Source of the DNA: Salinibacterium sp. SWN167
GTDB lineage: Bacteria; Actinomycetota; Actinomycetes; Actinomycetales; Microbacteriaceae
Direction of reading: 5' to 3'
DNA length: 64,000 nt
NCBI RefSeq assembly: GCF_015864665.1
Contig: NZ_JADYWU010000001.1
Span: 434,001-498,000, forward strand
In this document: positions 46,001 to 63,754 of the stretch, in pieces
Layout of the letters: each line of letters opens with the position of its first letter
Numbering within the stretch: position 1 is the first letter of the stretch
Program-made: the position numbers and the translations under genes
Notes under the pieces: model-generated
Databases searched by the model: none
Told to the model about the DNA's origin: nothing
What the model saw: the letters and a program-made list of their open reading frames with translations, nothing else

Positions 46001-49000
46001 CGACGTTCCGGCTACCACCAACGAAGTCATCGTCACGACTGTTCAGCCGCAACCGAGCATGACGGTCGTGAAGTCGGGCGCGATCGCTCTGACGGGTGAG
46101 AACGGCGTTGGCGACACCGTGGACTTCGAATTCGAGGTTCGCAACACCGGTAACGTCACGATCGGTTCGATCGTCGTCACCGACCCGCTCCCTGGAATGA
46201 CCACCCCTGACGTGCAGTGGCCGACCGCGATAGAAACTCTCGCACCGAACGAGACGGTAACCGCAACGGCGAGCTACGACATCCGTCAGTCGGATGTTGA
46301 CCGCGGCTTCGTAGAAAACACGGCGAGCGCTACGGCAGTTCCGGTGCGCGGCGATCCGATCGCGGCCACCTCGAACACGGTCGAGGTTCCCACGGAGGCT
46401 CCGAGCGTTGTGGTTTCTGTCACCAACACCGGTGCGCTGACGAACCCGGGCCCGGCTGTGGAAGGCGACACTGTCACCTGGAACTACAGCTTCACGAGTA
46501 CGAGCAACGTGACGCTCTCGGGCGTTGAGCTGAGCGACTTCACCGGCTCGTTGCCCGCGGGCGATTACACCTGGCCCGGTGTCGTGGGCGTTCTTACTCC
46601 CGGCGACACGGTCACGGCAGTTCGCGTGCAAACGCTGACGCAGGCCGATATCGACTCGGGGGCTGTCTCAAGCGTCGTCACCGGTGAGGGAACTCCTCCC
46701 GTTGGTGCCGCGGCTAGCGCCACGGCTCCGGCAACCGTCGCTCTCGCGGCGGATGGTCTGCTGCAGGTAACGAAGTCGAGCGAGTTGGCTGTTGCGGGCG
46801 AGAACGGTCCGGGCGACACAATCAACTACACGATCGTGGTTACCAACATCGGAAACGTCACGCTGCGCACGGTGACCATCACCGACAGCATCGACAACGT
46901 CTCGATCAACTCGATCGTCTGGCCCGCCAACAGTGGCGTACTGGCTCCGGGGGAATCGGCGACGGCCAGTGCGACCTACGTTCTCGAACAGGATGACGTC
47001 GACCGCGGTTACGTCGACAACACGGCATCCGTCCGAGGCGTCACGCCGGGCGACGACCCGGTCACGGCGACCTCGAACGTCGACCGCGAGCTCACTGCGG
47101 TAGCTGACCCCAGCATCACGGCCGAGAAGTCGGGCGTCATGACCTCGGGTTCGGGCGAAGTCGGTTCTGAAATCACGTACAGCTTCATCGTGAAGAACAC
47201 CGGAAACGTCACGCTGCGCCTCGTTGGCGTTCTCGATCCGCTGATTGAAGTTGTTCCCTCCGATCTCACCTTCCCCTCGGCCACCGGTATTCTCGGCCCA
47301 GGCCAGCAGGCTGTTGGTTCCGTCGTCTACACCGTCACTCAGGCGGACGTCGATAACGGCACCGTCGAGAACACGGCGACCGCGGTCGGCACTGCGCCCG
47401 ATGGCAGTGAAGTGACTGGCGTCTCGAACACCGTGCTCAATCCGACCGACGAGGCTGCACCCTCCATCGTCACTTCCCACACCGCAGCGCTCGCGGCCGG
47501 GGCAACCGGCGTGCTCGGCGATGGCATGGACTACACCTTCACCATCACGAATGACGGAAACGTCACGCTCGATGGCGTGACACTCTCGAACACGATCCCG
47601 GGCCTCACCGGCTTCGTCTACACGTGGCCAGACCCGGCCGCTCCGGGCGTTCTCGCGCCGGGCGAAAGCGTCACCGTCACGGCGACCCGTCTTGTTGATC
47701 AGGCGGATGTCGACGCTGGCGAAGTACGCAACGTCGCGACCGGTGAGGGCAACTCTCCGGCCGCAACCGCCGTTGATGCTGACTCTGCGGTGACCATCGT
47801 TCCGCTCATCGAGGCGCTGTCGAGCGTTGACATTGCCAAGGCTGGCGAACCGCGTGCCGCGGGCGACCCCGTCGTGGTCGGTTCGTGGATCGACTACACC
47901 TTCACCGTCGAAAACACGGGCGAAACCACTCTGAGTGGTGTCACCGTCGCTGACCCGAAGGTTGGAACGACCGCGGTCGTTTACGGCGCTTGGCCCGCAG
48001 CGACCGGAGTTCTCGCTCCGGGCGAGTCGGTCACGGCAACCGCGAGCTACCAGGTCACGCAGGCTGAGTTCGATGCCGGTTCGGCGTCGAACACCGCAAA
48101 CGTGACCTCGACGAATCCGGCGGGCGACGACGTGATCGACACGTCGAACACGGTTGTGGTGCCGACCGCTTCTGGCACTCCAGACATCGGCATCACGAAG
48201 ACGCAGGTGCTCGAAGCGGGCGCCACCGGCATGGCCGGCGACACCGTGGAGTACAGCTTCGAGGTCACCAACACCGGTGATGTCACGCTGAACGGTGTCA
48301 CGATCGCCGACGACCAGATCGATCTCAGCACGCTGACGATCACCTGGCCAGGCACTCCGGGCGTGCTCGCTCCGGGCCAGTCGGCAACGGCAACGGCGAC
48401 CTACGTGCTCACTCAGGATGACGTGGATGCTGGCTCGATCAGTTCCGACGCTTCCACGGCGGGTACGCCGCCAGTGGGCGCTGTGGTGACGGCTACGGCC
48501 ACCGGCTCAACGCCGATTGTCGAAGACCCGTCGATGACCATCACGAAGACGAGCTCGTTCGCGACCTTTGCCCAGCAGGGTGCCACCGTGAACTACGTCA
48601 TCGAGGTCGTCAACACCGGTAACGTCACGCTCACCGCCGTCGTAATCAGCGATCCCAAGCCGGGTGTCTCCGCGCTCACCTACAACTGGCCGGGTACTCC
48701 TGGCGAGTTGGCTCCCGGTGAGTCGGTTACCGCCACGGCGACGTACGTGATTACTCAGGGTGACGTCGACGTTGAGCAGACCACTAACGTCGCAACGGTG
48801 AACGCTGATGCCCCGTCGGGCGCCATCGCGCCGGAAGAGGCGACCGACGTTCTCGCGATCCCGAATGTGCCGAACATTGCACTGACGATCTCGGGTGTGC
48901 TCGGGGCGGGCCAGCAGGGCTTCCCCGGCGACATCGTGATCTTCACGTACGTGGCAACCAACACGGGAACGCTGCCGCTGACGAACGTCTCGATTGCAGA

Positions 49001-49879: not shown

Positions 49880-50515
49880 GTGACTGAACCGAACCCCAGC
49901 GTCGAGCTGTCGACCTACGGCGTCGGGCCTTGGCAGGGCGAATTGCCCACCGAACCCCACTACGACCCTGTGCTGCTCGAACGCGGCGATAGCCGCAACG
50001 TTATCGACCGGTATCGCTACTGGAACATGGAAGCGATCGTCGCCGATCTCGACGTGACACGTCATCCGTTCCACGTTGCCATCGAGAACTGGCAGCACGA
50101 CATGAACATTGGGTCCATCGTGCGCAGCGCCAACGCGTTCGGCGCCGACACCGTGCACATCATTGGGCGGCGGCGCTGGAACAAACGCGGCGCCATGGTC
50201 ACCGACCGCTACCAGCACGTGCTGCATCATCCGGATGTCGCAGCCTTTGTGGAGTGGACTCAAGCCAACGACCTGCCGATCATTGCGATCGACAACGTGC
50301 CCGGCAGTGTCATCATCGAAACGTACGACATGCCGAAGCGCTGCGTATTGCTCTTCGGCCAGGAGGGCCCCGGGCTCTCTCCCGAAGCGATCGATGCCGC
50401 CACGGATATCGTGGAGATCAGCCAGTTCGGTTCGACCCGTTCGATCAATGCTTCCGCCGCGGCCGCCGTAGCGATGCACAACTGGATCACTCAGCACGTC
50501 AGCTTCACGAAGTAG
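49880..50515 (+). CDS. SpoU/TrmH-family RNA 2'-O-methyltransferase
   Basis: The 211-residue SPOUT methyltransferase has the three family motifs: NIGSIVRSANAFGA, LLFGQEGPGLS and the knotted C-terminal SRS-type loop in GSTRSINASAAAAVAMHN. It methylates a ribose in tRNA or rRNA. The GTG start is at 49880. The last 26 bases, including the stop, recur at 62476-62501, on the far side of the sugar catabolism island. Confidence 0.88.
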   Translation: MTEPNPSVELSTYGVGPWQGELPTEPHYDPVLLERGDSRNVIDRYRYWNMEAIVADLDVTRHPFHVAIENWQHDMNIGSIVRSANAFGADTVHIIGRRRWNKRGAMVTDRYQHVLHHPDVAAFVEWTQANDLPIIAIDNVPGSVIIETYDMPKRCVLLFGQEGPGLSPEAIDAATDIVEISQFGSTRSINASAAAAVAMHNWITQHVSFTK

Positions 50516-50516
50516 G
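50491..50516. repeat. 26-bp direct repeat, left copy (spoU 3' end)
   Basis: The sequence beginning TCAGCACGTCAGC covers the last eight sense codons (QHVSFTK and part of the one before), the TAG stop and two more bases. An identical copy lies at 62476-62501. Similarity extends upstream of both (GCGATGCACAA in each) with small indels. Confidence 0.85.
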
Positions 50517-50552
50517 CCCGCGCGACTCGATCGGGCCCACTTCGCTTTGCCG

Positions 50553-52889
50553 TTAGTCCCTTACGACTACCGCGACGGGCGCGATGATCATTCGGTGGTG
50601 TCCGGCAACTCGTGATTCACCGGTCACCGTGAGCGATAGCCCGTCCGTTGCGGTGTCGCTTGACGTTCCGACGCTGAAGATCAGCTCGCCCGGCTCGACA
50701 ATGCGCTTCATCTCGATGCCGGTGTAGGCGCTGAGCTCAGGGCTGATCGTGAACGAGACGTGCGCCGTTTCGCCCGGTTCGAGGGAAACGCGCGCGAAAC
50801 CGACGAGCTTCTGAACCGGTCGAGCCACGGTAGCAACGGGGTCGGAAAGGTAGACCTGAACGGTCTCGGAGCCGGCGGACGCGCCCGTGTTCTTCACGTC
50901 GACGGACACTGTGGTCGCGCCGTCGATGTCGACCGTCTCATCGGCGAGCACAGCCGGGGAGAGCGAAAACGTGGTGTAGCTGAGCCCGTGACCGAACGCG
51001 AATGCCGGTGAGGTGGACTGGTTGGAGATCTTGTCGATAGTGCGGGTGAGTGGCGCTCCCAGGTAGAGGTGTTGTCCGCCGCCCGTCGTGAGGGGAATCT
51101 GAACGGGGAGCTTTCCCCCGGGGTTCACGCGACCGCTGAGCACGCCAACAATTGCGCCGGCACCTTCTTCGCCCGGGATGAAGGATTGAACCGCAGTGCG
51201 CACGCGATCACCGTACGTGAAGGCGTAGGGGCGCCCGCTGTTGGTGACTAGAATTACTGAAGCTCCGGTGTCGAGCACCGCATTCACGAGTGCTGCCTGC
51301 GTGCCGGGGAGCGCGAGATCGACGGCGTCGCATCCCTCACCAGAGGTTCCGCGCCCAAACATTCCGGGCAGGTCGCCCACCGTCAGAATGACCACGTCTG
51401 CGTCCCGTGCCAGTTCAACGGCTCGCTCGAGGTTGCCCGTCTCCGGGCCGAGAATGCTGGCGCCAGCCTCGTGGGTGACGGTCGAGTGGGGGAACTCGGC
51501 GCTCAGGGCGTCAAGGAACGACGGCACCTCGATGCCCAGTCCGAACTGCGGGTAGCGCGGCAGTACGTGCACGGGATAGGAGTAACACCCGAGCAGTGTT
51601 CGAGGATCGGCAGCCATGGGGCCAAGCACGGCAATGCGCCCGGAGAACTCGGGGGCGAGGGGGAGCAGGTTGTCATCGTTGCGCAGCAGCACGATGGATG
51701 CTTCGGCCACAGTGCGCGCAAGGGCTCGGTTGTCAGCGGAGTCGAGGTCGATGACCCGACCGCCCGTTTCGGGGTTTTCGTCAAGGAGACCCAGCTGTGC
51801 TTTCTGCAGCAGCACGCGATGAACCGCGCGATCGACAAGAGCTTCGTCCATCTCTCCGGAGCGCACCGCTTCGACGAGGGGAGGGAAGCACATACCGTTG
51901 GGGAGCTCGACATCCATGCCGGCCGCGAGCGACAGCGCGCCAGCAGAAGCGGCGTCAGCGGCAACCCCGTGAGCGCTGGCGAGGAAAGCGATGGCCCAGT
52001 AGTCAGAGATGACCGTTCCGGTGAAACCCCACTCGTCGCGAAGGAGTTCGGTGAGTAACGCTCGATCAGCGGCAATGGGAACGCCGTCAATATCGCTGTA
52101 CGAGTTCATGACCGAGCGCACGCCGCTGTCACGCACCGCAACCTCGAACGGCACCAGCATGACATCCGCGATCTCACGCGGACCCGCCGAGACGGGGGCG
52201 TGATTGCGCCCCGAGGCTGACGCCGAGTAGGCCACGAAGTGCTTCAACGTGGCGATGAGGCCACTGGCCTCCAAACCGCTGGTGTACGCGGAACCGACGG
52301 CGGCCACGAGTACCGGGTCTTCGCCGATCGTTTCCTCAACGCGACCCCAGCGGTAGTCGCGCACGACATCCAATACCGGTGAGAGGCCCTGATGTATCCC
52401 GAGAGCCCGAAGGTCGGCGCCGATCGTTTCGCCCACCTTCCTGGCAAGAGCGGGATCGAAGGTTGCTCCCCAGGCGAGCGGAGCCGGGTAGACCGTCGCC
52501 CCCAATGAGTTGACGCCAGTGAGGCACTCTTCGTGGGCAATAACGGGGATGCCGAGCCGCGAAGCATCCACGACCAGTTGTTGCTTTTCTTTCAGCCGTT
52601 GAGTGACCTCGGAAACCGTTCCCGGCTCAGTGCCAATGACGCGGGTGAAGTGGCCGAGCCCAAGCGGGGCAACCTGATCGAACGGCGGGCGGGTGGCACC
52701 GAGAGTGTCTTGCATCGGGGCAACGACTTCGCCGGCACCACGCTTGTCAAACCAATAGCCGACGAGTTGTGCGACCTTTTCTTCGAGCGTCATTTCCTCC
52801 AGTGCCGCGGTTGCGCGCTGCTCATCAGAGAGCGAGGTGTCATGCCAAGCCGCGGAGCGTGTGGGGGAAGAAACGGAGGAGGTCGTCAA
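50553..52889 (-). CDS. Glycoside hydrolase family 3 (beta-glucosidase or xylosidase)
   Basis: The 778-residue enzyme has the GH3 N-terminal barrel with KHFVAYSAS and the nucleophile Asp in TGTVISDYWAI, the second alpha/beta domain with the GSV-like segments (RIAVLGPMA), and a C-terminal fibronectin-III-like domain (VSVDVKNTGASAGSETVQVYL). There is no signal peptide, so it hydrolyses imported glycosides in the cytoplasm. The start overlaps the LacI-type regulator stop by 4 bases. Exact sugar unknown. Confidence 0.87.
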   Translation of the reverse strand: MTTSSVSSPTRSAAWHDTSLSDEQRATAALEEMTLEEKVAQLVGYWFDKRGAGEVVAPMQDTLGATRPPFDQVAPLGLGHFTRVIGTEPGTVSEVTQRLKEKQQLVVDASRLGIPVIAHEECLTGVNSLGATVYPAPLAWGATFDPALARKVGETIGADLRALGIHQGLSPVLDVVRDYRWGRVEETIGEDPVLVAAVGSAYTSGLEASGLIATLKHFVAYSASASGRNHAPVSAGPREIADVMLVPFEVAVRDSGVRSVMNSYSDIDGVPIAADRALLTELLRDEWGFTGTVISDYWAIAFLASAHGVAADAASAGALSLAAGMDVELPNGMCFPPLVEAVRSGEMDEALVDRAVHRVLLQKAQLGLLDENPETGGRVIDLDSADNRALARTVAEASIVLLRNDDNLLPLAPEFSGRIAVLGPMAADPRTLLGCYSYPVHVLPRYPQFGLGIEVPSFLDALSAEFPHSTVTHEAGASILGPETGNLERAVELARDADVVILTVGDLPGMFGRGTSGEGCDAVDLALPGTQAALVNAVLDTGASVILVTNSGRPYAFTYGDRVRTAVQSFIPGEEGAGAIVGVLSGRVNPGGKLPVQIPLTTGGGQHLYLGAPLTRTIDKISNQSTSPAFAFGHGLSYTTFSLSPAVLADETVDIDGATTVSVDVKNTGASAGSETVQVYLSDPVATVARPVQKLVGFARVSLEPGETAHVSFTISPELSAYTGIEMKRIVEPGELIFSVGTSSDTATDGLSLTVTGESRVAGHHRMIIAPVAVVVRD

Positions 52890-53920
52890 GAGTTGTTCCT
52901 GTCTAAAGGCGGTGCCGTTGATTCACGGACGACGAGGCGGGTAGCGAGTTCGATGTGGTGGGAGTCAAGATGCTCACCGGCGGCGAGCTGCTGCACGGTG
53001 CGAAGAGCCACCCTGCCGATGTCCTGCAACGGCTGATAAACGCAGGTCAGCGGGGGATTCGCCCACGACGCCACATAAGTGTCGTCATAGCCGACAAGGC
53101 TCAGGTGCTCGGGAACGCGGATGTCTAGCTGGCGCGCCGCTTCTAGTACGCCCATCGCTTGCGCATCACTCGAGGCGACAATGGCGGTGGGGCGATCGGT
53201 GCGACTGAGCAACTCGTGAGCAACGCGTTCAGCGGCATCGTGATCGAAGCTCGTGTGGGTGATGAAATCATCCGGGACGGCTATTCCGGCGGCATCCGCT
53301 GCGGACCGAAAGCCATCGACGCGGGCGCGGGCGCTGAGCGATTCAGCCGGGCCGCCAATGATCGCAATGTTTCGGTGGCCGAGGCCAATGAGGTGCTCCG
53401 TCGCGCTGCGGCCCCCGATCCAGTTGGTGGAGCCTACCGAAGCGACCGACGACTCATCCATGCGAAGGGGGTCGATGAGTACGATCGGGAAAGCTGATCG
53501 AGAGATCGCTTGATGGGTTGGCTCTGACATATCGACCGTGAGGATGATGGCGCCCACCCGCCCCGATCGATTGAGTCGGCGAATCACCTCCTGATCGGAT
53601 TTGTGGGGACTAGGGCGAAATCGGCCAACGACTACATCAATTCCAGCCTCTTCGGCAGCGAGGGTGACGCCGCGCAAAATTTCCATGGCGTACGGACTGG
53701 TGAGTTTGTCGACGAGAAATTCGATCGTCGGGGCTGCGGCCGCGCCGCGCGGGCGACCGGCACCGTACCCGGTCGCTTCGATGGCGACTTCGATTCGGGC
53801 GCGCGTGGATGCCGCGACGTCGCTACGGCCGTTGAGCGCTTTTGAGGCGGTAGCGATAGAAACGCCGGCATGCTGCGCGACGTCATTCAGCGTTGGCCGC
53901 TGTGCTTTCGTGCTTTCCAT
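52886..53920 (-). CDS. LacI-family transcriptional regulator
   Basis: The 344-residue repressor has a N-terminal LacI helix-turn-helix (TLNDVAQHAGVSIATASKAL with hinge) and a periplasmic-binding-protein-like sugar domain. It is the first gene of a unit with the GH3 enzyme and is divergent from the ABC transporter operon, so it most likely represses both until its sugar is present. Palindromes CGAAA-N2/3-TTTC at 53961 and 54070 lie in the shared promoter region. Confidence 0.88.
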   Translation of the reverse strand: MESTKAQRPTLNDVAQHAGVSIATASKALNGRSDVAASTRARIEVAIEATGYGAGRPRGAAAAPTIEFLVDKLTSPYAMEILRGVTLAAEEAGIDVVVGRFRPSPHKSDQEVIRRLNRSGRVGAIILTVDMSEPTHQAISRSAFPIVLIDPLRMDESSVASVGSTNWIGGRSATEHLIGLGHRNIAIIGGPAESLSARARVDGFRSAADAAGIAVPDDFITHTSFDHDAAERVAHELLSRTDRPTAIVASSDAQAMGVLEAARQLDIRVPEHLSLVGYDDTYVASWANPPLTCVYQPLQDIGRVALRTVQQLAAGEHLDSHHIELATRLVVRESTAPPLDRNNS

Positions 53921-53960
53921 GGTGCTCCTAGTCCCGAGATCGAAAGACTATCCAAGAACT

Positions 53961-53971
53961 CGAAAACTTTC
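53961..53971. promoter_or_regulatory. Candidate LacI-type operator, regulator side
   Basis: CGAAAACTTTC has arms GAAA/TTTC and is related to the palindrome at 54070-54082, 109 bases away. It lies about 40 bases upstream of the regulator gene start. Confidence 0.35.
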
Positions 53972-54014
53972 AATAATTCGCTCACATAATTTTGCTGCAC
54001 TCGGCAACAAATAT

Positions 54015-54044
54015 TTGACAGTACCCGCTTTCTCGCCATAGTGT
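54015..54044 (+). promoter_or_regulatory. Candidate promoter of the sugar ABC operon
   Basis: A perfect -35 TTGACA at 54015-54020 is followed after 18 bases by TAGTGT at 54039-54044, a weak -10. It points at the transporter operon, which starts at 54116. A candidate operator lies just downstream at 54070-54082, a position suited to repression. Confidence 0.45.
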
Positions 54045-54069
54045 GACTCTCGAGACACCGAAAGTGCTT

Positions 54070-54082
54070 CGAAACATTTTCG
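54070..54082. promoter_or_regulatory. Candidate LacI-type operator, transporter side
   Basis: CGAAACATTTTCG has perfect 5-base arms around CAT. It is 26 bases after the candidate -10 of the transporter promoter and resembles 53961-53971. Confidence 0.4.
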
Positions 54083-54115
54083 ACAAACAACTCAACGAAG
54101 AGAATTGGGACACAT

Positions 54116-55411
54116 ATGTTGCGGGCCAAAAAACAAAGATTTATGACTGGCGTTGCGGTGCTAACAGCGGGAGTTCTCGCGCTCACCGGATGCAGCGGCT
54201 CCGGTAGCGACGGCGGCTCTTCGACGGCAGTCGTCTGGGGCGTAGAGGGCGGGCAGTCAGCCTCCTACGAAGCAGCGGTTGATCGTTGGAACGAAACCAA
54301 CCCCGACAGGCCTATCGAACTTCAGATGTTCGGAAACGACGGCTACTCCGACAAGCTCCGCATCGCTCTCGGAGCAGGTCAAGGGCCCGACTTGATGTTC
54401 GGCTGGGGCGGCGGAGTGCTCGAGGGCTACGTCGACGCCGGCTACATCGATCCCATCGAAGATCCCGAGATCACCGACCGTTATCTCGATGCCGTGAACG
54501 ACAACGCCACCTTCGATGGCGCGGTCTATGGTGCTGCCATCAACAACATCCAGCCCGTTGTCATCCTGTACAACAAGGCTGTATTCGAAGAAGTGGGAGC
54601 TACTCCTCCCGAATCATGGGACGACCTGATGGATCTCGTTCCGGTCTTCAACGACGCCGGCGTCGCGCCGATCGCGCTGGCTGGAGCGAGCAAATGGCCG
54701 CAGCTGCCGTACATCTCGTACCTGGTCGATCGAATCGGTGGCCCTGAGGTCTTCGACGCGATTGTCGCTAATGAGCCCGACGCCTGGTCAGATCCCGCTA
54801 TCGCGGAATCGATCGACATGATTCAGGACCTCGTCAAGGCTGATGGCTTCAACTCAGACTTTGCCGCACTCGACTACGGAAGTGGAGCTGCGGATGCACT
54901 GCTCTACACCGGCAAGGCCGCAATGATGGTCGCTCTTTCTCAGGCCTACTCAAACATTCAGACCAAGGCCCCTGATTTCGTCGACAGCGGCGATCTGGGC
55001 TACGTCACCTTCCCCACTGTCGGCTCAGGTTCGGGAGACACCACAGACCTCGTCGGAAACCCGTCGAACTACTGGTCGGTAGCGTCAGCGGCGACAGACG
55101 CTAATAAAGCGACTGTCACTGACTTCCTGGCGACCGAAGTGATGAACGACGCCTACATTGGTGAGGTCCTTGAGCGCTCTGCCGTTCCCGGGGTAAGCGA
55201 CGCGAAAGACCTGATTGACCAGCGCGACGACGCCGACTTCCAGTCGTTCGTCTTCGATCTGTCGGATGACGCTGCGAACTTCCAGCTCTCCTGGGACCAA
55301 GCACTATCACCCGCTCAGGGCGCCGAACTCACGGTTCAGCTCGACCGAGTGTTCCTGCAGGAAATCGACGCCGACGAGTTCATGCAGCTCATGAACGCGA
55401 CAATCAAGTGA
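54116..55411 (+). CDS. Sugar ABC transporter substrate-binding lipoprotein
   Basis: The 431-residue protein has a signal peptide with lipobox LTGC at residues 23-26 and the CUT1-type binding-protein fold, including GDG-type DLMFGWGGG, NKAVFEEVGA and the WDQALSPA segment near the C-terminus. It captures an oligosaccharide or sugar outside the membrane and delivers it to the two permeases behind it, whose first gene overlaps its stop by 4 bases. It heads the island's plus-strand operon. Confidence 0.88.
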   Translation: MLRAKKQRFMTGVAVLTAGVLALTGCSGSGSDGGSSTAVVWGVEGGQSASYEAAVDRWNETNPDRPIELQMFGNDGYSDKLRIALGAGQGPDLMFGWGGGVLEGYVDAGYIDPIEDPEITDRYLDAVNDNATFDGAVYGAAINNIQPVVILYNKAVFEEVGATPPESWDDLMDLVPVFNDAGVAPIALAGASKWPQLPYISYLVDRIGGPEVFDAIVANEPDAWSDPAIAESIDMIQDLVKADGFNSDFAALDYGSGAADALLYTGKAAMMVALSQAYSNIQTKAPDFVDSGDLGYVTFPTVGSGSGDTTDLVGNPSNYWSVASAATDANKATVTDFLATEVMNDAYIGEVLERSAVPGVSDAKDLIDQRDDADFQSFVFDLSDDAANFQLSWDQALSPAQGAELTVQLDRVFLQEIDADEFMQLMNATIK

Positions 55412-56349
55412 CGACCGTAACAACGACGACGGGGGGCATCCGTGCTCCCCGTCGTGGGTCGGCGCTCGCGGCTAGACAACGGTCGGGCGGGCCGTCACTC
55501 TGGTTCCTTCTTCCCGCAGCGCTCCTGTTCGGTGGCTTCGCCATCCTGCCGTTGCTGGGAGCAGTAGTTCTGTCGTTCACGCAGTGGAGCGGGCTCGGCA
55601 CGCCGCAGTGGCTGGGAGCCGACAACTGGCTCTGGTTCGTCACAGACCCAGTGACCTACACGACGCTCGGCATCACGTTCGCCGTGATGTTCGGCAGCCT
55701 GCTTGTTCAGGGCCCGATCAGCATGCTTCTTGGCGTCTGGATCGCGCGCTCGGGAGGGTTCCGATCCTTCGCCGGACTCATCTTCTTTGTCCCGCTTCTG
55801 CTCTCGTCTGCGGCGGTAGCGCTCGCCTACAAGAACCTGCTTGACCCTAACTTCGGACTCTCCACGCAAGACGGCTTCGGATGGCTCGCGCATAACTGGC
55901 TCGGAGATAAAAACACGGTGCTCATCATGGTGATTCTGGTGATCGCGTGGCACTTCGTTCCCCTTCACACGCTGCTGTACCAGGGCGGTGTGCGTCAGAT
56001 CCCCGCTTCGCTTTATGAGGCGGCATCGATCGACGGCGCCGGCAAAATCATGCAGTTCTTCACGATCACCGTTCCGCAGTTGAAGTACACCATCGTGACG
56101 TCATCCACGCTGATCGTGGTGGGATCGTTGACCTACTTCGACCTCATCTTCGTGATGACAGCCGGTGGGCCGGGATACGCGACACGCGTGCTGCCGCTGC
56201 ACATGTACCTCACCGGGTTCCGCTCGGCAGAGATGGGCAAGGCAAGCGTGATTGCCACGGTTCTCGTGCTGATTGGGCTTGTGCTTTCGCTTGCGCTGAC
56301 GCGCTGGAGCGGGTTCTCGAAAATGAAGAGTCAACAGGAGGGAATGTAA
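55408..56349 (+). CDS. Sugar ABC transporter permease, MalF-like
   Basis: The 313-residue protein has six membrane helices and the EAA loop YEAASIDGAGKIMQFFTITVP that contacts the ATPase. It pairs with the permease at 56349 to form the channel. Start and stop overlap both neighbours. No ATP-binding subunit is encoded nearby, so a shared MsiK-type ATPase elsewhere is expected, as is usual for CUT1 systems in actinobacteria. Confidence 0.88.
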   Translation: MTTVTTTTGGIRAPRRGSALAARQRSGGPSLWFLLPAALLFGGFAILPLLGAVVLSFTQWSGLGTPQWLGADNWLWFVTDPVTYTTLGITFAVMFGSLLVQGPISMLLGVWIARSGGFRSFAGLIFFVPLLLSSAAVALAYKNLLDPNFGLSTQDGFGWLAHNWLGDKNTVLIMVILVIAWHFVPLHTLLYQGGVRQIPASLYEAASIDGAGKIMQFFTITVPQLKYTIVTSSTLIVVGSLTYFDLIFVMTAGGPGYATRVLPLHMYLTGFRSAEMGKASVIATVLVLIGLVLSLALTRWSGFSKMKSQQEGM

Positions 56350-57266
56350 TGAGTACCACCACTTCAGTGGATCCCGTGCGGGTCACTGCACCTCCCGTTA
56401 CTGCACCGCCGACTAAGTCTGCGCCCGTGCGCCGGCGGCCATCGTTGTTCAGTAAGCACACCAACATTCCTGGCGGTCTGGGTGGCGCGCTCTGGCTGAT
56501 TATCGTTGTCATCCCTCTCTATTGGGTTCTGACCACTAGTTTCCGCAGCAGCACTACCTTCTTCTCCGACGCACCGTTGTCGCTTCCCTCCGAGCCGACG
56601 CTCGCCAACTATGTCAAGGTCTTCGACTCGGGATTCTTCGGGTACTTTACGAACTCGGTCATCGTGACGATTGCAGCCGTCATTATCGCCGTGTTCGTCT
56701 CGCTCCTGGCGGCGTACACAATTGCGCGAAATACCCACGTCGTGTCACGGACTGCATTTTCGCTGGTATTGCTCGGCCTCGCCGTTCCGCTCCAAGCGGC
56801 AATCATCCCTATCTTCTACATGCTTTCTCAGATGGGGCTTTACGACACTTTGCTGGCCCTGATCATTCCGTCAGCCGCCTTCGCAATTCCGATCACCGTG
56901 GTCATCCTGGTGAACTTTCTCCGGGATATCCCCGGTGAGCTGTTCGAGTCGATGCGTCTCGATGGCGCCACCGACTGGACGATGCTGTGGAAGCTTGTGC
57001 TTCCGCTGTCGCGTCCGGCCTTGATTACGGTCGGCATCTATAACGCTCTGGGTGTCTGGAACGGATTTCTCTTTCCGCTCGTGCTCACTCAAAGCCCATC
57101 CGTGCGGGTTCTTCCGCTTGCGCTCTGGAGCTTTCAGAGCGAACTCACGGTGGACGTTCCCGGGATTATGGCCGCAGTGGTCATGTCGATGATCCCGATC
57201 TTGACCTTGTACATCTTCGGGCGTCGACAGCTCGTTGCAGGCTTGACGGCGGGATTCGGAAAATGA
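56349..57266 (+). CDS. Sugar ABC transporter permease, MalG-like
   Basis: The 305-residue permease has a cytoplasmic Pro/Thr-rich N-terminus, about six membrane helices and the EAA loop FESMRLDGATDWTMLWKLVLP. It is the second channel subunit. Its first base is the last base of the preceding stop, and the next gene overlaps by 4 bases, so the operon is tightly coupled. Confidence 0.88.
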   Translation: MSTTTSVDPVRVTAPPVTAPPTKSAPVRRRPSLFSKHTNIPGGLGGALWLIIVVIPLYWVLTTSFRSSTTFFSDAPLSLPSEPTLANYVKVFDSGFFGYFTNSVIVTIAAVIIAVFVSLLAAYTIARNTHVVSRTAFSLVLLGLAVPLQAAIIPIFYMLSQMGLYDTLLALIIPSAAFAIPITVVILVNFLRDIPGELFESMRLDGATDWTMLWKLVLPLSRPALITVGIYNALGVWNGFLFPLVLTQSPSVRVLPLALWSFQSELTVDVPGIMAAVVMSMIPILTLYIFGRRQLVAGLTAGFGK

Positions 57267-58231
57267 GCGACAATTCATCAACAGATTCAACGTACGCCTC
57301 GAGCGCATCGTGGCCCATTGCCGCTGCGATGCTCCCCTTCGCAGCGAGTCAGGATGCTAGCCCCGAGGCGTGGTTCGATCAGCTCGCCCAGGTGGCATTC
57401 GAAGGTATCGATAGCGTCGACGTCACCGACAACTGGGTGCAGGCGGGCGATCTTTCGTCGGCACGACTCGAGGAACTGTCGGCCGTTATTGCAGAAGCTC
57501 ACCTTCGACCGATTGCAATCTCAGCAATACGACGAAGCGTGATCGACCCGGTGGCTGGCGACGACAACCTCGCCTACAGCCATCGCACCCTCGACGCTGC
57601 TGCCAAGCTTGGCATCCCGCTGGTGAGTTTCGGGCTGCACCGACCACTCTTGCCAGGACAAAAGACTTCGCAGTGGTTCTGGACCGAACCCGGGCCGGTT
57701 GACGATCAAGACGACGCGACCTGGGATCTCGCGACCACGCGCATCCGCGAACTCGGCACGCACGCCGCCGACCTCGGAATCGCAGTCTCGCTGGAGATGT
57801 ATGAAGACACGCTGATCGGCACTGTCGATGGCGGCCTTCGACTCGTCGAGTCGGTAGGCCTCTCCAACGTCGGCCTTAACCCCGACCTTGGCAACATGTA
57901 CCGACTGCATCGCGATATCGAGGACTTTCTCGAAGCAAGCGCGCGCTGCGCCCCGGTGTCTAACTACTGGCACGTCAAGAACTATTTTCGAGACGAAGAT
58001 CGCGAGCGTGGCTTCGTCACCACGGTGCCCGCGCCCATGGAGTTCGGCTCGATGAACTACCGGGCCGCCATCGCTGCGGCGATCGCTGCGGGTTTCGCGG
58101 CACCGTTCTGTGTCGAGCACTACGGCGGTGATGGCCTGTCTGTCGCGGCCCGCAACGCAGACTACGTGCGCCGCATGATTGCGGTCGCACTCGGAGAAGC
58201 ACGCACCGCCGTGCGCGGATTGGAGAGCTGA
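57263..58231 (+). CDS. TIM-barrel sugar isomerase/epimerase
   Basis: The 322-residue product belongs to the xylose-isomerase-like TIM-barrel family. Metal-binding residues are suggested by SLEMYEDT (Glu), LNPDLGNMYR (Asp), YWHVKNY (His) and FCVEHYGGDG (Glu/His). Such enzymes isomerise or epimerise sugars or sugar acids. It overlaps the permease gene by 4 bases and precedes the dehydrogenase by 2, so it acts early in the imported sugar's pathway. Substrate unknown. Confidence 0.8.
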   Translation: MSDNSSTDSTYASSASWPIAAAMLPFAASQDASPEAWFDQLAQVAFEGIDSVDVTDNWVQAGDLSSARLEELSAVIAEAHLRPIAISAIRRSVIDPVAGDDNLAYSHRTLDAAAKLGIPLVSFGLHRPLLPGQKTSQWFWTEPGPVDDQDDATWDLATTRIRELGTHAADLGIAVSLEMYEDTLIGTVDGGLRLVESVGLSNVGLNPDLGNMYRLHRDIEDFLEASARCAPVSNYWHVKNYFRDEDRERGFVTTVPAPMEFGSMNYRAAIAAAIAAGFAAPFCVEHYGGDGLSVAARNADYVRRMIAVALGEARTAVRGLES

Positions 58232-58233
58232 CA

Positions 58234-59118
58234 ATGACAAACGTGACGGTAATCGGACTCGGCGCGATGGGGCTGCCGATGGCAACCCACTTGACTAAAT
58301 CCTTCGACGTGAAGGTGTACGACATCAACCCTGTTGCGCTCAACAAAGCCGCAGCGGCCGGGGCTACACCGGCGTCGTCACTCGAACAGGCAGCGGATGG
58401 TGCCGACGTCGTCGTACTGATCGTTCGCGATGCAGCACAGCTTCAGTCCGCATTGTTTGGAACCGGCGGAGTTGTGGACGGGCTAGCGCCCGGATCAGTC
58501 GTAGTCATCACATCGACTGTCGGCGAAACCGCCCTAGTGCGCGCTGCCGACCTTCTGCACGCACGGGGCATCCTCTGCGTAGACGCCGCCCTTTCCGGTG
58601 GCCCGGTTCGGGCAGAAACCGGCGACCTCCTGATCATGGTCGGTGGCTCGCCTGAGGCACGGTCGGTAACCCAGCCGGTACTCGATGCGCTCGGTTCGAC
58701 CGTGTGCGTCGTGGGCGACAAAGTTGGCCAAGGCCAGCAGCTTAAGGCCGTCAATCAGCTTTTGTGCGGCATCCACACTGCCGCTGCGGCAGAAGCCCTT
58801 GCCCTGGCGCATCAGCTCGGTCTTGACCTCGACATGGTTATTGACGTTCTTGGCGCGGGCGCTGCCGCCTCGTTCATGTTCGCCGACCGTGGTCCGCGTA
58901 TTGCGCAGCAGCTACGCGGGGAAACCCCGCCGTTGCGTTCGCGACTCGACGTGATCGGCAAAGACATGGGTATTGTCGGCGACGTTGCCCGCGAGCGGAA
59001 AGTCAGCGTTCCGTTGGCGAGCGCGGCGGAGCAGCTGTATCGCATGGGCGAAGCAGCGGGACTTGCTGCAGAAGACGACTCGATCATCAGCACTCTTTTT
59101 GCTGCGAGCGACAAATGA
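58234..59118 (+). CDS. 3-hydroxyisobutyrate-dehydrogenase-like oxidoreductase
   Basis: The 294-residue enzyme starts with a Rossmann fold GLGAMGLPMA and has the beta-hydroxyacid dehydrogenase substrate signature DAALSGGPVRAETG and the catalytic Lys in QLKAVNQLLC. Family members oxidise hydroxy acids such as L-threonate, tartronate or hydroxyisobutyrate with NAD(P). Between an isomerase and a kinase, a C4 sugar-acid substrate (LtnD-like) is plausible but not shown. Confidence 0.82.
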   Translation: MTNVTVIGLGAMGLPMATHLTKSFDVKVYDINPVALNKAAAAGATPASSLEQAADGADVVVLIVRDAAQLQSALFGTGGVVDGLAPGSVVVITSTVGETALVRAADLLHARGILCVDAALSGGPVRAETGDLLIMVGGSPEARSVTQPVLDALGSTVCVVGDKVGQGQQLKAVNQLLCGIHTAAAAEALALAHQLGLDLDMVIDVLGAGAAASFMFADRGPRIAQQLRGETPPLRSRLDVIGKDMGIVGDVARERKVSVPLASAAEQLYRMGEAAGLAAEDDSIISTLFAASDK

Positions 59119-60830
59119 CCGTTCTTTTCAACGACCCTTCAGACTTTGCCGAGGATGCTCTCGACGGCTTTGTAGAGCTCTATGCCGATCGCCTGTCAGG
59201 AGTACCCGGTGGTGTGGTCGCGCATCGCCGCGGTGAGCCCAAGGTTGCTGTTGTTATCGGTGGCGGATCGGGCCACTACCCGGCATTCGCCGGTCTTGTT
59301 GGCCCCGGCTTTGCGACCGGTGCCGTTGTCGGCAACATCTTCACCTCCCCGTCGGCCGCACAGGTGTATTCGGTAGCGAAGGCTGCGAATGAGGGCCGTG
59401 GTGTGGTTTTGAGCTTCGGCAACTACGCCGGAGACGTGATGAACTTTGGAATCGCGGCTGAGCGTCTGCGCAGCGAAGGAATCGATACGCGGGTTGTGCT
59501 CGTGACGGATGACGTGGGCTCATCGCCCGACGCGGATCAACGCCGTGGAATTGCCGGCGACTTTACGGTCTTCAAAGTGATGGGTGCTGCCGCAGCGGAA
59601 GGACTCTCACTCGACGAGGTTGAGCGTCTTGGCCGGGCTGCGAACGACTCCACTCGCTCACTCGGTGTTGCATTCTCTGGATGCACGATGCCGGGTTCAG
59701 CCGAGCCGCTGTTCTCCATCCCGTCCGGCTCGATGAGCGTTGGGCTCGGAATCCATGGCGAACCAGGGGTGCGCGACGTTCCGCGGCTCACCGCCGATGA
59801 ACTTGCTCGATTGCTTCTCGATGGTGTTCTGAGCGAACGGCCTGTCGGAGACTCGACCCGCGTCGCTGTCATCCTCAACGGGTTGGGAACGACGAAGTAT
59901 GAAGAACTCTTCGTCGTGTGGAAGGCGCTTTCGCGATTGCTGAAGGATGCTGGTTTAGCGGCAGTAGGAGTTGAGGTCGGAGAACTCGTAACGAGCCTCG
60001 ACATGGGCGGCTGTTCGCTCACCCTGATGTGGCTCGATGAAGAACTCGAGCGCACCTGGACTGCTGACGCTTACACTCCGGCGTACCGAAAGATCAGCGC
60101 GGGCCTCGACAAGCTGACCCCGGTCGAGCCGGGAGCAGCATCGATCGCTCAGGCCTCCGCCCCAGAATCTACGGAAGCATCGCGGGCGCTGATGCCCCTG
60201 CTGGTGGCTGCAGTCTCGACCGTTCGCGCTGTCCTGCACGACAACGCTGTCGAGTTGGGCGACATCGATGCGGTCGCAGGTGACGGGGATCACGGCCGCG
60301 GAATGGTCAAGGGTATTGACGCCGCTGCAGGAATCGTCGACAACTCAACGTCGGGAGGCGTTGCCGGGAACCTCCGCCAAGCCGGGCGCGAGTGGGCCAC
60401 ACGCGCCGGCGGAACCTCCGGAGTTCTCTGGGGTGCCGGCCTTGAAGCCGCAGCGGAAGCGATTCGCGATGACCGTCTTGAGTACGACGCCACTGTCGTA
60501 ACGGACGCTGCCGAGGCATTCCTCGAGGCTATTCAGCAATTAGGCGGAGCTGAGGTGGGCGACAAGACATTCGTCGACGCGCTCGTGCCGTTCATCCACA
60601 CTCTCAAGCGCGACGTAGACCGCGGTGAGGAGCTCAGCGCTGCCTGGAGTAACGCGGCCGATGCTGCAGCACTAGCAGCAGCAGCCACAGAGAGCCTGAC
60701 GCCCAAGAAGGGCCGGGCTCGACCACTCGCCGAGCGCAGCATCGGAACACCCGACGCTGGCGCAACCTCATTCGCGTTGATCGTTGGAGCACTCGCTCAA
60801 CCCCGCACAGCCTGGAAGGCAGATTCATGA
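59115..60830 (+). CDS. Dihydroxyacetone/erythrulose kinase (DhaK-DhaL fusion)
   Basis: The 571-residue ATP-dependent kinase joins a DhaK domain ([22 protein letters not shown], the substrate-binding His in GLGIHGEPG) to a DhaL domain (about residue 370 on, with [12 protein letters not shown] for ADP/Mg binding). It phosphorylates short ketoses. The sequence style resembles tetrulose kinases of actinobacteria (DerK-like) more than glycerone kinase of glycerol metabolism, by recollection of family sequences. It is followed directly by an RpiB-type isomerase that would take a ketose phosphate. Confidence 0.85.
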
Positions 60831-61306
60831 GCACTACGACCCCGCTGATCCGCGTCGTTATCGGTAGCGACGACGCCGGATTCGAGTACAAAGAGATATT
60901 GAAGGCGGATCTCGAAGCCGATCCGCGTGTAGCCTCCGTCGTCGACGTCGGAGTCTCCGAAAGCGAATCCACGGCGTATCCGCACATTGCAGTGGATGCC
61001 GCTCGCCTAGTTGCCGCTGGCGAAGCCGATCGCGCTCTCCTCGTGTGCGGCACTGGTCTTGGCGTCGCGATCGCCGCCAACAAAGTGGAAGGGATCCGTG
61101 CGGTGACTGCCCACGATTCTTTCTCTGTGGAGCGAAGCGTTTTGTCGAATAATGCCCAAGTGCTGTGCTTCGGTCAGCGCGTTGTCGGGCTTGAACTCGC
61201 ACGACGCCTGGCGCGGGAATGGCTCGGCTACACCTTCGACTCGTCGAGTGCCTCCGCCGAAAAGGTCGCAGAGATCGAACGCTACGAACTGCGTCCCTCT
61301 GTCTGA
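60827..61306 (+). CDS. RpiB/LacAB-family sugar-phosphate isomerase
   Basis: The 159-residue protein has the RpiB fold, with [14 protein letters not shown] (catalytic Cys loop) and [12 protein letters not shown]. The usual His of the GSDHAGF motif is replaced: here it reads [10 protein letters not shown]. The variation and the DhaK-type neighbour suggest the branch acting on four-carbon ketose phosphates (DerI/EryI-like), giving an aldose phosphate for the pentose phosphate pathway. It overlaps the kinase stop by 4 bases. Confidence 0.82.
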
Positions 61307-61375
61307 TTAGCGGTTTCCCGCACATCCGCCACTCGCCTCCCGGGCTCGGCGGCACAACTAAAGGAGTCGGTTCGA

Positions 61376-62434
61376 GTGGGAATCGCAGCAACGAGATTAA
61401 CGGTCGGGGTGGCCACGCCCCTCAGCGAAGAACTGTGTGCGCTGATCGAATCGTTGGAACCGCGCGTGCAACTGATTCGCGACCAGTCGTTGTTGCCTCC
61501 GATGCGATTTACGGCGGACTACGCGGGCGATCCTGACTTTCGTCGCACAGCGCAGCAGCAGTCGCAGTTTATGCAACTGCTCAACTCTGCCGACGCCCTC
61601 TACGGAATCCCCGATCTGTCGACGCCTCTGCTGAAAGAGGTCGTGCAGCAGAATGACCGTCTTCGCTGGGTTCAGACGATGGCGGCGGGCGGTGGAGCTC
61701 AGATTCGAGAAGCGGGCTTCACGCGGCACGAGCTCGATCGGGTGGCGTTCACCACCTCCGCGGGAGTGCATGGCGGGCCGCTCGCGGAATTTGCGTTATT
61801 CGGGTTGCTGGCCGCGAGCAAGTCGCTCCCTCGGCTGCTTCGGCAGAGCCAGGCACACGAGTGGAGCGAGCGGTGGCCGATGGCGCAGCTCAGCGACCAC
61901 ACGATACTGCTGCTCGGACTCGGCGGGATCGGATCGGCGCTCGCCGAAAAGTTGAGTGCGCTCGGCGTCCATGTCATCGGGATGAGCCGCCGCGGCGAGA
62001 TGGTTCCCGGAGTCGCCGAGATCATCGAACCGCACAACCTGCCCGCGGCGATCCAACGCGCCGACGGAATCGTGGTGTCGTTGCCAGGCACGCCCCACAC
62101 CGAAAAGCTCGTCGACGCCGAATTTTTCACAATGGTTAAGCCCGGTGTCACTGTGGTCAACGTGGGGCGCGGCAGCGTGATCGACGAACAGGCTCTCATC
62201 GCTGCGCTCGAAGACGGTCGTGTCGGCTTTGCGGCGCTCGACGTCGTAGAAACAGAACCTCTGGTGAAGTCGAGCCCGCTCTGGGAGATGGACAACGTGC
62301 TGCTGAGCCCGCACACTGCAGCGCTGAGCTACGCGCAGGAAGAGCAGATTGCGCGACTCTTCGCTCGAAATGCCAGCGCTTTCCTGGATGGTCGTCCCCT
62401 GCGCAACGTCGTCGACACGGTGCATTTCTACTAA
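61376..62434 (+). CDS. D-2-hydroxyacid dehydrogenase
   Basis: The 352-residue NAD(P)-dependent enzyme has the Rossmann glycine loop LGLGGIGSALAEKL, the catalytic Arg region VNVGRGSVID, the Glu of DVVETEPL and the His in LSPHTAAL. It is the last gene of the island. The start is a GTG at 61376 with AAAGGAG about 10 bases upstream. The N-terminal 130 residues are more divergent than in PGDH. It would reduce or oxidise a 2-keto or 2-hydroxy acid; target unknown. Confidence 0.85.
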   Translation: MGIAATRLTVGVATPLSEELCALIESLEPRVQLIRDQSLLPPMRFTADYAGDPDFRRTAQQQSQFMQLLNSADALYGIPDLSTPLLKEVVQQNDRLRWVQTMAAGGGAQIREAGFTRHELDRVAFTTSAGVHGGPLAEFALFGLLAASKSLPRLLRQSQAHEWSERWPMAQLSDHTILLLGLGGIGSALAEKLSALGVHVIGMSRRGEMVPGVAEIIEPHNLPAAIQRADGIVVSLPGTPHTEKLVDAEFFTMVKPGVTVVNVGRGSVIDEQALIAALEDGRVGFAALDVVETEPLVKSSPLWEMDNVLLSPHTAALSYAQEEQIARLFARNASAFLDGRPLRNVVDTVHFY

Positions 62435-62475
62435 CGCTGCTCTCTCGGCGGCCGTCGCGATGCACAATGGAGTAA

Positions 62476-62501
62476 TCAGCACGTCAGCTTCACGAAGTAG
62501 G
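62476..62501. repeat. 26-bp direct repeat, right copy
   Basis: Identical to 50491-50516. The bases before it are a degraded copy of the SpoU gene's last codons (the frame still reads QHVSFTK and a stop). It lies between the last island gene and the FAD oxidoreductase at 62507. Confidence 0.85.
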
Positions 62502-62506
62502 GAACT

Positions 62507-63754
62507 ATGACACAGCCCGCGAAAGTCACCATTATTGGCGCCGGAATCGTAGGGCTGTCAACGGCCTGGTTCTTGCAGGAGCGTGGCGTGGAGGTCACCG
62601 TGCTCGACCGCACGGGCGTTGCCGCTGGTGCTTCGCTCGGTAACGCCGGCTGGGTTGCTCCCGCACTGACACTTCCGCTGCCGGAGCCCTCGATCTTCAA
62701 GGTCGGCATCAAAGCGGTTATCGACCCCACCTCGCCCGTGTACGTTCCGGTCGCCGCCAACTCGACGCTGCTGCGCTTCCTCGCCGGCTTTGCGCGTCAC
62801 TCGACGCCCAAGATGTGGCGCCGCAACATGGTCACGTTCGCCGAGATCAACAAGTGGAGTCTCGAATCCTTCGACCGGATGGAAGACGGCGGAGTCTCTG
62901 CAGCCCTCAAGCACGCCGACCCCTTCCTTGCTGCTTTCACTAATGAATCCGACCGCCGTGTCATCACCCACGAATTCGATGAGGTCGCGGCCGGCGGCGG
63001 TCACGTGAGCTTTGAGAAGATCACCGGCGACGAGCTGCGCGAGTTTGAGCCGAGCGTCTCGAAGCTCGTGACCCATGGGCTGCGCGTGGATGGCCAGCGT
63101 TTCATCAACCCTCCCTCGTTCATGGAGGTGCTGGCGGCATCAGTGCGCGCTCGCGGAGCCACGATCGTGGAAGGCGCGAAAGCGACCGGCATCCGCGACC
63201 TCGGTGCTGCCGGAGTTGCCGTTGATGTCGAGGGCCAGAACGCGGTACTCAGCAACGAAGTCGTCATCGCGACCGGAACCTGGCTTGGTGACCTCGCCCG
63301 CCAGTTCGGCGTGCGCCAAGTTGTGCAGTCGGGCCGCGGCTACAGCTTCAGCGTGAAGCCGCCTGTGATTCCGACACACCCGATCTACCTGCCCGCCCAA
63401 CGCGTAGCCTGCACGCCCCTCGGGGATCGGCTGCGCGTGGGAGGCATGATGGAGTTCCGGTCGGTCGATGCGCCTGCCGATTCTCGTCGCATCCAAACCA
63501 TCGTCAACGCGGCCAGCCCGATGTTCGACGGCGTCGACTGGGATGCCCGCGAAGAAGAGTGGGTCGGCTCGCGCCCCTGCACTCCCGACGGCCTACCGCT
63601 TGTCGGAGGCACGCGCTCGCCGCGCGTTCACGTCGCCGGCGGTCACGGCATGTGGGGCGTCACCCTCGGCCCGCTCACGGGCCGGATTCTCGCCGACTCG
63701 ATCACGGGTGGCGACAAGCACCCGCTACTCGACGCTTTCGACCCACTGCGCTAG
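62507..63754 (+). CDS. DadA-like FAD-dependent D-amino-acid oxidoreductase
   Basis: The 415-residue protein has the FAD dinucleotide loop GAGIVGLSTAW, the second motif ASLGNAGWVAP and the C-terminal GGHGMWGVTLGPLTG, typical of DadA-type D-amino-acid dehydrogenases and related sarcosine or glycine oxidases. It would oxidatively deaminate an amine. It follows the right-hand copy of the spoU repeat by 5 bases, so it is probably the original neighbour of the methyltransferase gene. It converges on the partial gene at 63751, their stops overlapping. Confidence 0.82.
   Translation: MTQPAKVTIIGAGIVGLSTAWFLQERGVEVTVLDRTGVAAGASLGNAGWVAPALTLPLPEPSIFKVGIKAVIDPTSPVYVPVAANSTLLRFLAGFARHSTPKMWRRNMVTFAEINKWSLESFDRMEDGGVSAALKHADPFLAAFTNESDRRVITHEFDEVAAGGGHVSFEKITGDELREFEPSVSKLVTHGLRVDGQRFINPPSFMEVLAASVRARGATIVEGAKATGIRDLGAAGVAVDVEGQNAVLSNEVVIATGTWLGDLARQFGVRQVVQSGRGYSFSVKPPVIPTHPIYLPAQRVACTPLGDRLRVGGMMEFRSVDAPADSRRIQTIVNAASPMFDGVDWDAREEEWVGSRPCTPDGLPLVGGTRSPRVHVAGGHGMWGVTLGPLTGRILADSITGGDKHPLLDAFDPLR

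Follow-up and report, generated by a model that had tools for sequence, protein, structure and literature searches.

How can a metabolic gene cluster settle between two conserved genes, flanked by two identical copies of the end of one of them, when it carries no integrase? This question is raised by an island in Salinibacterium sp. SWN167 (genome G000), located in the 64,000-nucleotide stretch of DNA that we analysed (the window, to which coordinates refer unless stated otherwise). A first-pass annotation had interpreted the repeat as the footprint of an insertion at the 3′ end of spoU, or of a duplication. Our results point to an integrase-free cassette of ten genes for sugar catabolism at a variable, recombination-prone site between spoU and a gene for a FAD-dependent oxidoreductase (hereafter FAD). 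Probably, this cassette entered together with a copied spoU tail. Its transfer involving strain G005 was clearly homologous.

Gene content of the island

The left conserved neighbour, spoU, encodes a TrmH/SpoU-family RNA methyltransferase (PF00588; 49880–50515, forward strand), for which a match was found in all 60 genomes searched, its own included. A gap at 50517–50552, similar among the carriers of the island, separates it from the convergent gene of a GH3 glycoside hydrolase (50553–52889, reverse strand), which is beta-xylosidase/arabinosidase-like with a score below the curated cut-off. Next to it is a LacI-family regulator (52886–53920, reverse strand), which remained below the cut-offs of all specific models. 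The other island genes are on the forward strand. They encode the substrate-binding protein (54116–55411) and two permeases (55408–56349 and 56349–57266) of a sugar ABC transporter, all below cut-off; a sugar-phosphate isomerase/epimerase-like TIM barrel (AP_endonuc_2, PF01261; 57263–58231); an NAD-binding dehydrogenase of the 3-hydroxyisobutyrate/L-threonate dehydrogenase type (58234–59118; NCBIfam match below cut-off); a dihydroxyacetone-kinase family protein with fused Dak1-Dak2 (59115–60830; above cut-off); an RpiB-type isomerase (60827–61306; above cut-off); and, as last gene, a D-2-hydroxyacid dehydrogenase (61376–62434; PF02826, NCBIfam match below cut-off). FAD, a member of the DAO family (PF01266; 62507–63754, forward strand), is the right conserved neighbour.

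Profile scans were run with NCBIfam on all ten island genes and with Pfam on six of the ten, and the NCBIfam cut-offs were passed only by some of the matches of the kinase and the RpiB-type isomerase. The NCBIfam model for D-erythrulose-4-phosphate isomerase was matched below its cut-off. The joint presence of a DAK-type kinase and an RpiB-type isomerase suggests breakdown of a four-carbon sugar. Scans for promoters (3 found versus 2.3 expected) and terminators (7 found versus 8.9 expected) yielded nothing above chance. Just left of the island region lies a single reading frame of 6102 amino acids (31032–49340), in which we recognised by eye many similar surface-protein-like repeats and a hydrophobic, basic C-terminus.

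Among the ten genes of the cargo there is neither an integrase nor a transposase. Ten genes with family matches occupy the island and the largest intergenic gap is about 195 bp, so there is no space for an integrase. This agrees with the first-pass annotation, which had reported that an integrase was absent, and the four matches to PF00589 in the genome are all elsewhere: those that share the contig of the island are over 190 kb distant, and the rest are on a different contig. The genome-wide recombinase search covered tyrosine integrases of this family. No tRNA genes were found across the window. The G+C content of the island is 61.5%, versus 62.6% for the window, and composition therefore gives the island no foreign mark.

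The 26-bp repeat and the spoU tail

The 26-mer TCAGCACGTCAGCTTCACGAAGTAGG is present in two copies, which sequence identity places at 50491–50516 and 62476–62501 on the forward strand. The left copy is the real 3′ end of spoU with its stop codon, and the right copy is also the sequence that precedes the start codon of FAD. The first-pass annotation had described these identical copies as flanking a catabolic cluster. Our results support this description: all ten island genes lie between them, and a 25-base query (50492–50516) with up to three mismatches found these two sites only in the 3.0-Mb genome, leaving no third place. A chance similarity, or a repeat family unconnected with the island ends, is virtually discounted. 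We found no point that would support it, the two genomic copies lie exactly at the island ends and match the empty sites of relatives, and the alignment scores far exceed those of shuffled sequences. The shuffle tests and the empty sites both led us to reject a chance repeat.

The degraded similarity that had been seen 5′ of the right copy was borne out. A local alignment with the spoU tail scored 99, versus at most 48 in 60 shuffles, and the score of the 40 bp 5′ of the right 26-mer, taken alone, was reached by none of 1000 shuffles. A gap of 72 bp, with GGAACT as its final six bases, separates the last island gene's stop codon from the ATG of FAD. Of this gap, 66 bp align with the spoU tail of another carrier, G025 (score 84, null maximum 37 in 500 shuffles), and the last 55 of these with the spoU tail of G000 itself (score 86, null maximum 43 in 500 shuffles). 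Because the gap aligns with the spoU tail and its upstream 40 bp surpass 1000 out of 1000 shuffles, the right copy is the intact end of a longer, decayed and 5′-truncated spoU tail (62435–62500, forward strand) that fills the space between the last island gene and FAD. It translates as QHVSFTK followed by a stop, as reported before, but only locally, since a 1-base deletion upstream destroys the frame.

A perfect 26-bp repeat at the 3′ end of a gene, with the stop restored, might also be explained by site-specific integration. An element with an attachment site equal to the spoU 3′ end would then have regenerated the stop upon insertion, using an integrase that either worked in trans or has since disappeared. 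A search of 80 related spoU loci, with up to 10 kb of flank and less at contig ends, does not favour this explanation. No spoU-tail repeat in the available flanks exceeded 18 bp: 76 of the 80 loci had none of at least 16 bp, and the other four had one of 16–18 bp. For the island carriers in this set, the 10 kb of flank does not extend as far as the right copy. Likewise, a collection of viral contigs contained no exact match to the 22-base core of the repeat. As the spoU loci and the viral contigs gave no support, we rejected the repeat as a widely used attachment site.

States of the site among relatives

The comparison set consisted of 27 Salinibacterium genomes, G000 included, among them Salinibacterium sp. 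SWN248 (G005), sp. NG253 (G010), sp. PAMC 21357 (G015), S. amurskyense DSM 16400 (G026) and marine actinobacterium PHSC20C1 (G017). At E 0.001, FAD had matches in 26 of the 27, and one genome had none. A close orthologue, with at least 82% identity, was present in 11 of the 27, and 15 others had weak matches only. In all 11 genomes the orthologue adjoins spoU, directly or across an insert. This spoU-FAD site exists filled, empty, or with other content: four genomes carry the island (G000, G005, G015 and G025), six are empty, and one holds different cargo. In eight of the 16 genus genomes lacking the FAD orthologue, we inspected the region 3′ of spoU and found no island genes and no FAD there.

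The first-pass annotation had suggested looking for strains in which FAD directly follows spoU. Such strains exist. The distance from the spoU stop to the FAD start is 6 bp in three of them (G010, G020 and G026), and 59, 68 and 119 bp in G017, G011 and G004, respectively. Hence, the island is truly present in some genomes and missing from others, and the concern that all relatives might carry it does not apply, with six of the 11 spoU-FAD sites being empty.

Precise empty sites would be in line with site-specific integration, as would the occupation of the site by another cluster in G009. This 8-kb cluster (about 2209–10206 of L034) contains, as judged by eye from the translations, an ABC transporter and SIS-domain, ROK-kinase, phosphofructokinase-like, aldolase and DeoR-like genes, and FAD overlaps the end of its last gene. 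However, the G009 insert has no second spoU tail, the score of 32 being reached by 93 of 100 shuffles. The three other carriers of the island, with inserts of 12.0–12.1 kb, have these ten genes, equally spaced, and this uniform set of ten genes without an integrase also argues against site-specific integration.

The right side of FAD is variable as well, because the roughly 2 kb immediately following FAD in G005 (about 1500–3500 of L056) matched nothing in the stretches compared from G000, G010 and G026, but gave matches of 73–81% in G020, G025 and G015.

Junction sequences

At the three 6-bp empty sites, the junction reads spoU-TAGGGAAC(C/T)ATG-FAD. At the right end of the island, the junction sequence of G000, G005 and G025 is TAGGGAACTATG, and that of G015 is TAGGGATCTATG. 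Single-base changes aside, the 6-bp empty sites thus resemble the right junction of the island. The long-gap empty sites have a different gap, with a GAGGAG stretch that by eye looks like a ribosome site. The three long gaps match one another (0 of 1000 shuffles reached the scores), and no homology with them was detectable in the left gap of the island, whose score was attained by 166 or more of 1000 shuffles in each of nine comparisons. The simplest version of the history, with the island displacing the ancestral gap leftwards, is therefore removed.

The repeat is less perfect in other carriers. The right and left 26-mers differ at no position in G000, at the first base only in G005, at three positions in G025 and at two in G015; over the last 25 bases, the numbers of mismatches are 0, 0, 3 and 1, respectively. 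The part 5′ of the right 26-mer is spoU-like in G000 and G025 (0 of 1000 shuffles each), and in G015 we detected no likeness to spoU (148 of 1000 shuffles reached the score).

Recent transfer between two strains

The comparison between G000 and G005 shows where an exchange took place. Differences between the two strains run through spoU up to 50491. From there, only 28 differences occur across 13.2 kb (50492–63669), spanning the island and most of FAD, and the sequences diverge again after 63669, within FAD. In their core genes, 17% of the fourfold-degenerate (4-fold) sites differ. The spoU gene of G005 is of the empty type, with 95.9% identity to G010, 96.2% to G026 and 91.6% to G000; over the last 200 columns these values are 98, 100 and 89%. 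These patterns clearly indicate that homologous recombination transferred this segment recently. On the left, the crossover fell in the 26-mer or at its edge; on the right, it fell inside FAD. Most likely, a G000-like island entered an empty-type chromosome together with about 1.16 kb of FAD; the reverse direction would be less simple.

The right boundary, at 63669, lies inside FAD and about 1.17 kb past the repeat, so the repeat was not the right boundary of this transfer. The left boundary falls within the last 25 bases of shared sequence, which is compatible with use of the repeat there. Yet, this was seen only once, and further to the left the strains had longer stretches of identity available. 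A crossover in the last 25 bp of homology could also be chance.

Within the isomerase-like gene, 21 of the 28 differences between the G000 and G005 islands are clustered at 57278–57718. This cluster suggests gene conversion at a later time, with another allele as the source.

The boundary in FAD, away from the repeat, is a further argument against site-specific integration, and so are the differences between the two copies over 25 bases (50492–50516) in two of the three other carriers, G025 and G015, even though they match in G005. Overall, we consider site-specific integration quite improbable. From the first-pass annotation, then, the insertion footprint stands insofar as the right copy derives from the spoU 3′ end and empty sites exist, whereas the reading of the 26-mer as a site-specific attachment site finds no support, given the transfer that ends in FAD, the differences between the copies and the viral contigs without an exact match.

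spoU alleles and age of the island

To place spoU against the species background, we used a core set of five genes from the rpoB region plus gyrB (12,471 bases), with divergence calculated at 4-fold sites. According to the core genes, G010 is the sister of G000, followed by G005 and then G020, while G025 groups with G026 and G015 with G009. The spoU tree differs. It joins G000 with G025 (support 0.993) and the empty sites with G005 (0.983), and leaves the placement of G015 without resolution. For instance, G000 and G010 differ at 12% of the 4-fold sites in the core genes versus 24% in spoU. As the transfer case, G005 was left out of the groups of filled and empty sites. Among the three empty pairs (G010, G020, G026), spoU diverges by 8–17% versus 20–30% for the core, and among the three filled pairs (G000, G025, G015) by 18–20% versus 28–33%. 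Of the nine filled-empty pairs, spoU exceeds the core in three and is below it in six; in the three pairs that include G015 it is clearly lower (20–24% versus 31–35%). The spoU genes of G009 and G026, too, diverge unusually little (15% versus 36% in the core). It follows from the pairs with G015 and from G009 and G026 that spoU also recombines apart from the island. Judged from these divergences, spoU alleles largely track the state of the site rather than the species, a link that is strong for G000, G025, G010, G020 and G026, and weak for G015.

Divergence of the island genes themselves amounts to 12.5–29% of the 4-fold sites between G000 and G025 (core 28%), and to 17–32% between G000 and G015 (core 32%). 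Some genes are at the level of the core, and others are lower, down to about half of it. The genus has thus carried the island for a long time, and parts of the island were exchanged later. Protein identities of 90–100% had raised the possibility of a recent horizontal spread to all four carriers; this was rejected, as the 4-fold sites leave only G005 clearly recent.

The isomerase-like gene is present with at least 98% identity in four of the 27 genus genomes, always at the spoU-FAD site. Used as a probe, it passed E 1e-60 in 95 of 398 genomes of the family. With this one-gene probe no intact cluster was found outside the genus; the best match is 69% identical, at a locus with four of the ten island genes. 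In G085, from another genus, a four-gene block (L233, 8742–12743) consists of the isomerase-like protein, the dehydrogenase, the DAK kinase and RpiB at 64–70% identity, and lacks the glycosidase, transporter and regulator of the island at the threshold used. Among plasmid records, the kinase probe retrieved 367 at E<=1e-60, all below 60% identity and hence distant relatives only. Neither a donor nor a circular form of the island was found.

Order of events

Two orders of events might explain the 6-bp empty sites. Either the 6-bp gap is older and the island was inserted there along with a copied spoU tail, or the island was inserted first and its later loss created the 6-bp gap. In the latter case, the 6-bp empty sites would be scars, left when an ancestral island was lost through RecA recombination between the spoU end and the right-hand copy. 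This is supported by the 6-bp gap, which reproduces the right junction save for single-base changes while the long-gap empty sites have another gap, by the age of the island (its genes in G000, G025 and G015 show between half and the whole of the core divergence), and by the nesting of the 6-bp empty sites among carriers in the core tree. Conversely, the spoU genes of the 6-bp empty sites form a group of their own, outside the spoU of the carriers, and the left gap of the island is unlike the long gaps; therefore, the 6-bp empty site could equally represent the state before insertion. We regard scars as quite possible, although short of probable. Because the spoU of the 6-bp empty sites does not fall inside the carriers' spoU, we lean slightly towards the 6-bp gap first and insertion after.

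As for the entry itself, we infer that an ancestor took up the cassette plus a copy of the spoU tail. Possibly, a circle was joined to the chromosome through one crossover in spoU, or a duplication took place. After either event, spoU would have been intact at the left end, with a truncated copy of its tail ahead of FAD. The truncated part would then have decayed, while the portion adjoining the FAD start codon persisted, perhaps as a translation leader for FAD. Retention of the right 26-mer is weak evidence of such a leader role, given the changes in G015 and G025. Once present, the repeat would allow ordinary recombination to insert or remove the cassette with both neighbours unharmed. A bolder version, which we think rather unlikely, is that the duplicated spoU tail works as a recombination adapter. 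Next to spoU it would supply the C-terminus and stop codon of that gene, and next to FAD it would serve as the translation leader, such that RecA alone could plug the cassette in and out without scars and the population would toggle between filled and empty sites.

Comparison with other systems

Gene 3′ ends are common targets of integrative islands. As in such islands, a direct repeat of the gene 3′ end is found at both ends of the Salinibacterium island, and the gene is kept intact. In contrast, the present island has no integrase or excisionase, its repeat is imperfect in two other carriers, and the boundary of the one transfer that we saw is off the repeat.

Erythritol and threitol catabolic gene sets include a DAK-type kinase and an RpiB-type isomerase. 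The island similarly combines a kinase, an RpiB isomerase and threonate-dehydrogenase-like enzymes, but differs from these sets in having a GH3 glycosidase and an ABC transporter with a binding protein in addition.

Hotspots without mobile elements have been described by Oliveira et al. 2017 (PMC5635113). They resemble the spoU-FAD site in their variable content between two conserved genes with different cargo per genome, in cargo without an integrase, and in recombination in the flanking genes, here spoU. Our site differs in that the tail of one flanking gene has been duplicated at the other flank, creating a short perfect repeat at the ends of the cargo. Several features that mark such hotspots were found at our site, namely empty sites, cargo free of integrases and transposases, and homologous recombination in the flanking genes. 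From its sequence, the spoU-FAD island would belong with the hotspots lacking mobile elements, with the repeat as an unusual trait, as it has neither the integrase nor, in the one transfer seen, the boundaries of an integrative island. Judging by titles and abstract openings, the literature matches listed for Salinibacterium islands and genomes, spoU integration, island transfer and the pathway included none on this locus.

The spoU-FAD site offers a clean natural case of a metabolic cassette that moves between species within one actinobacterial genus without a mobility gene of its own, with crossovers that can be read almost to the base. It suggests that a perfect 3′-end repeat at the ends of an island, usually regarded as the mark of an integrase, can arise or persist without one.
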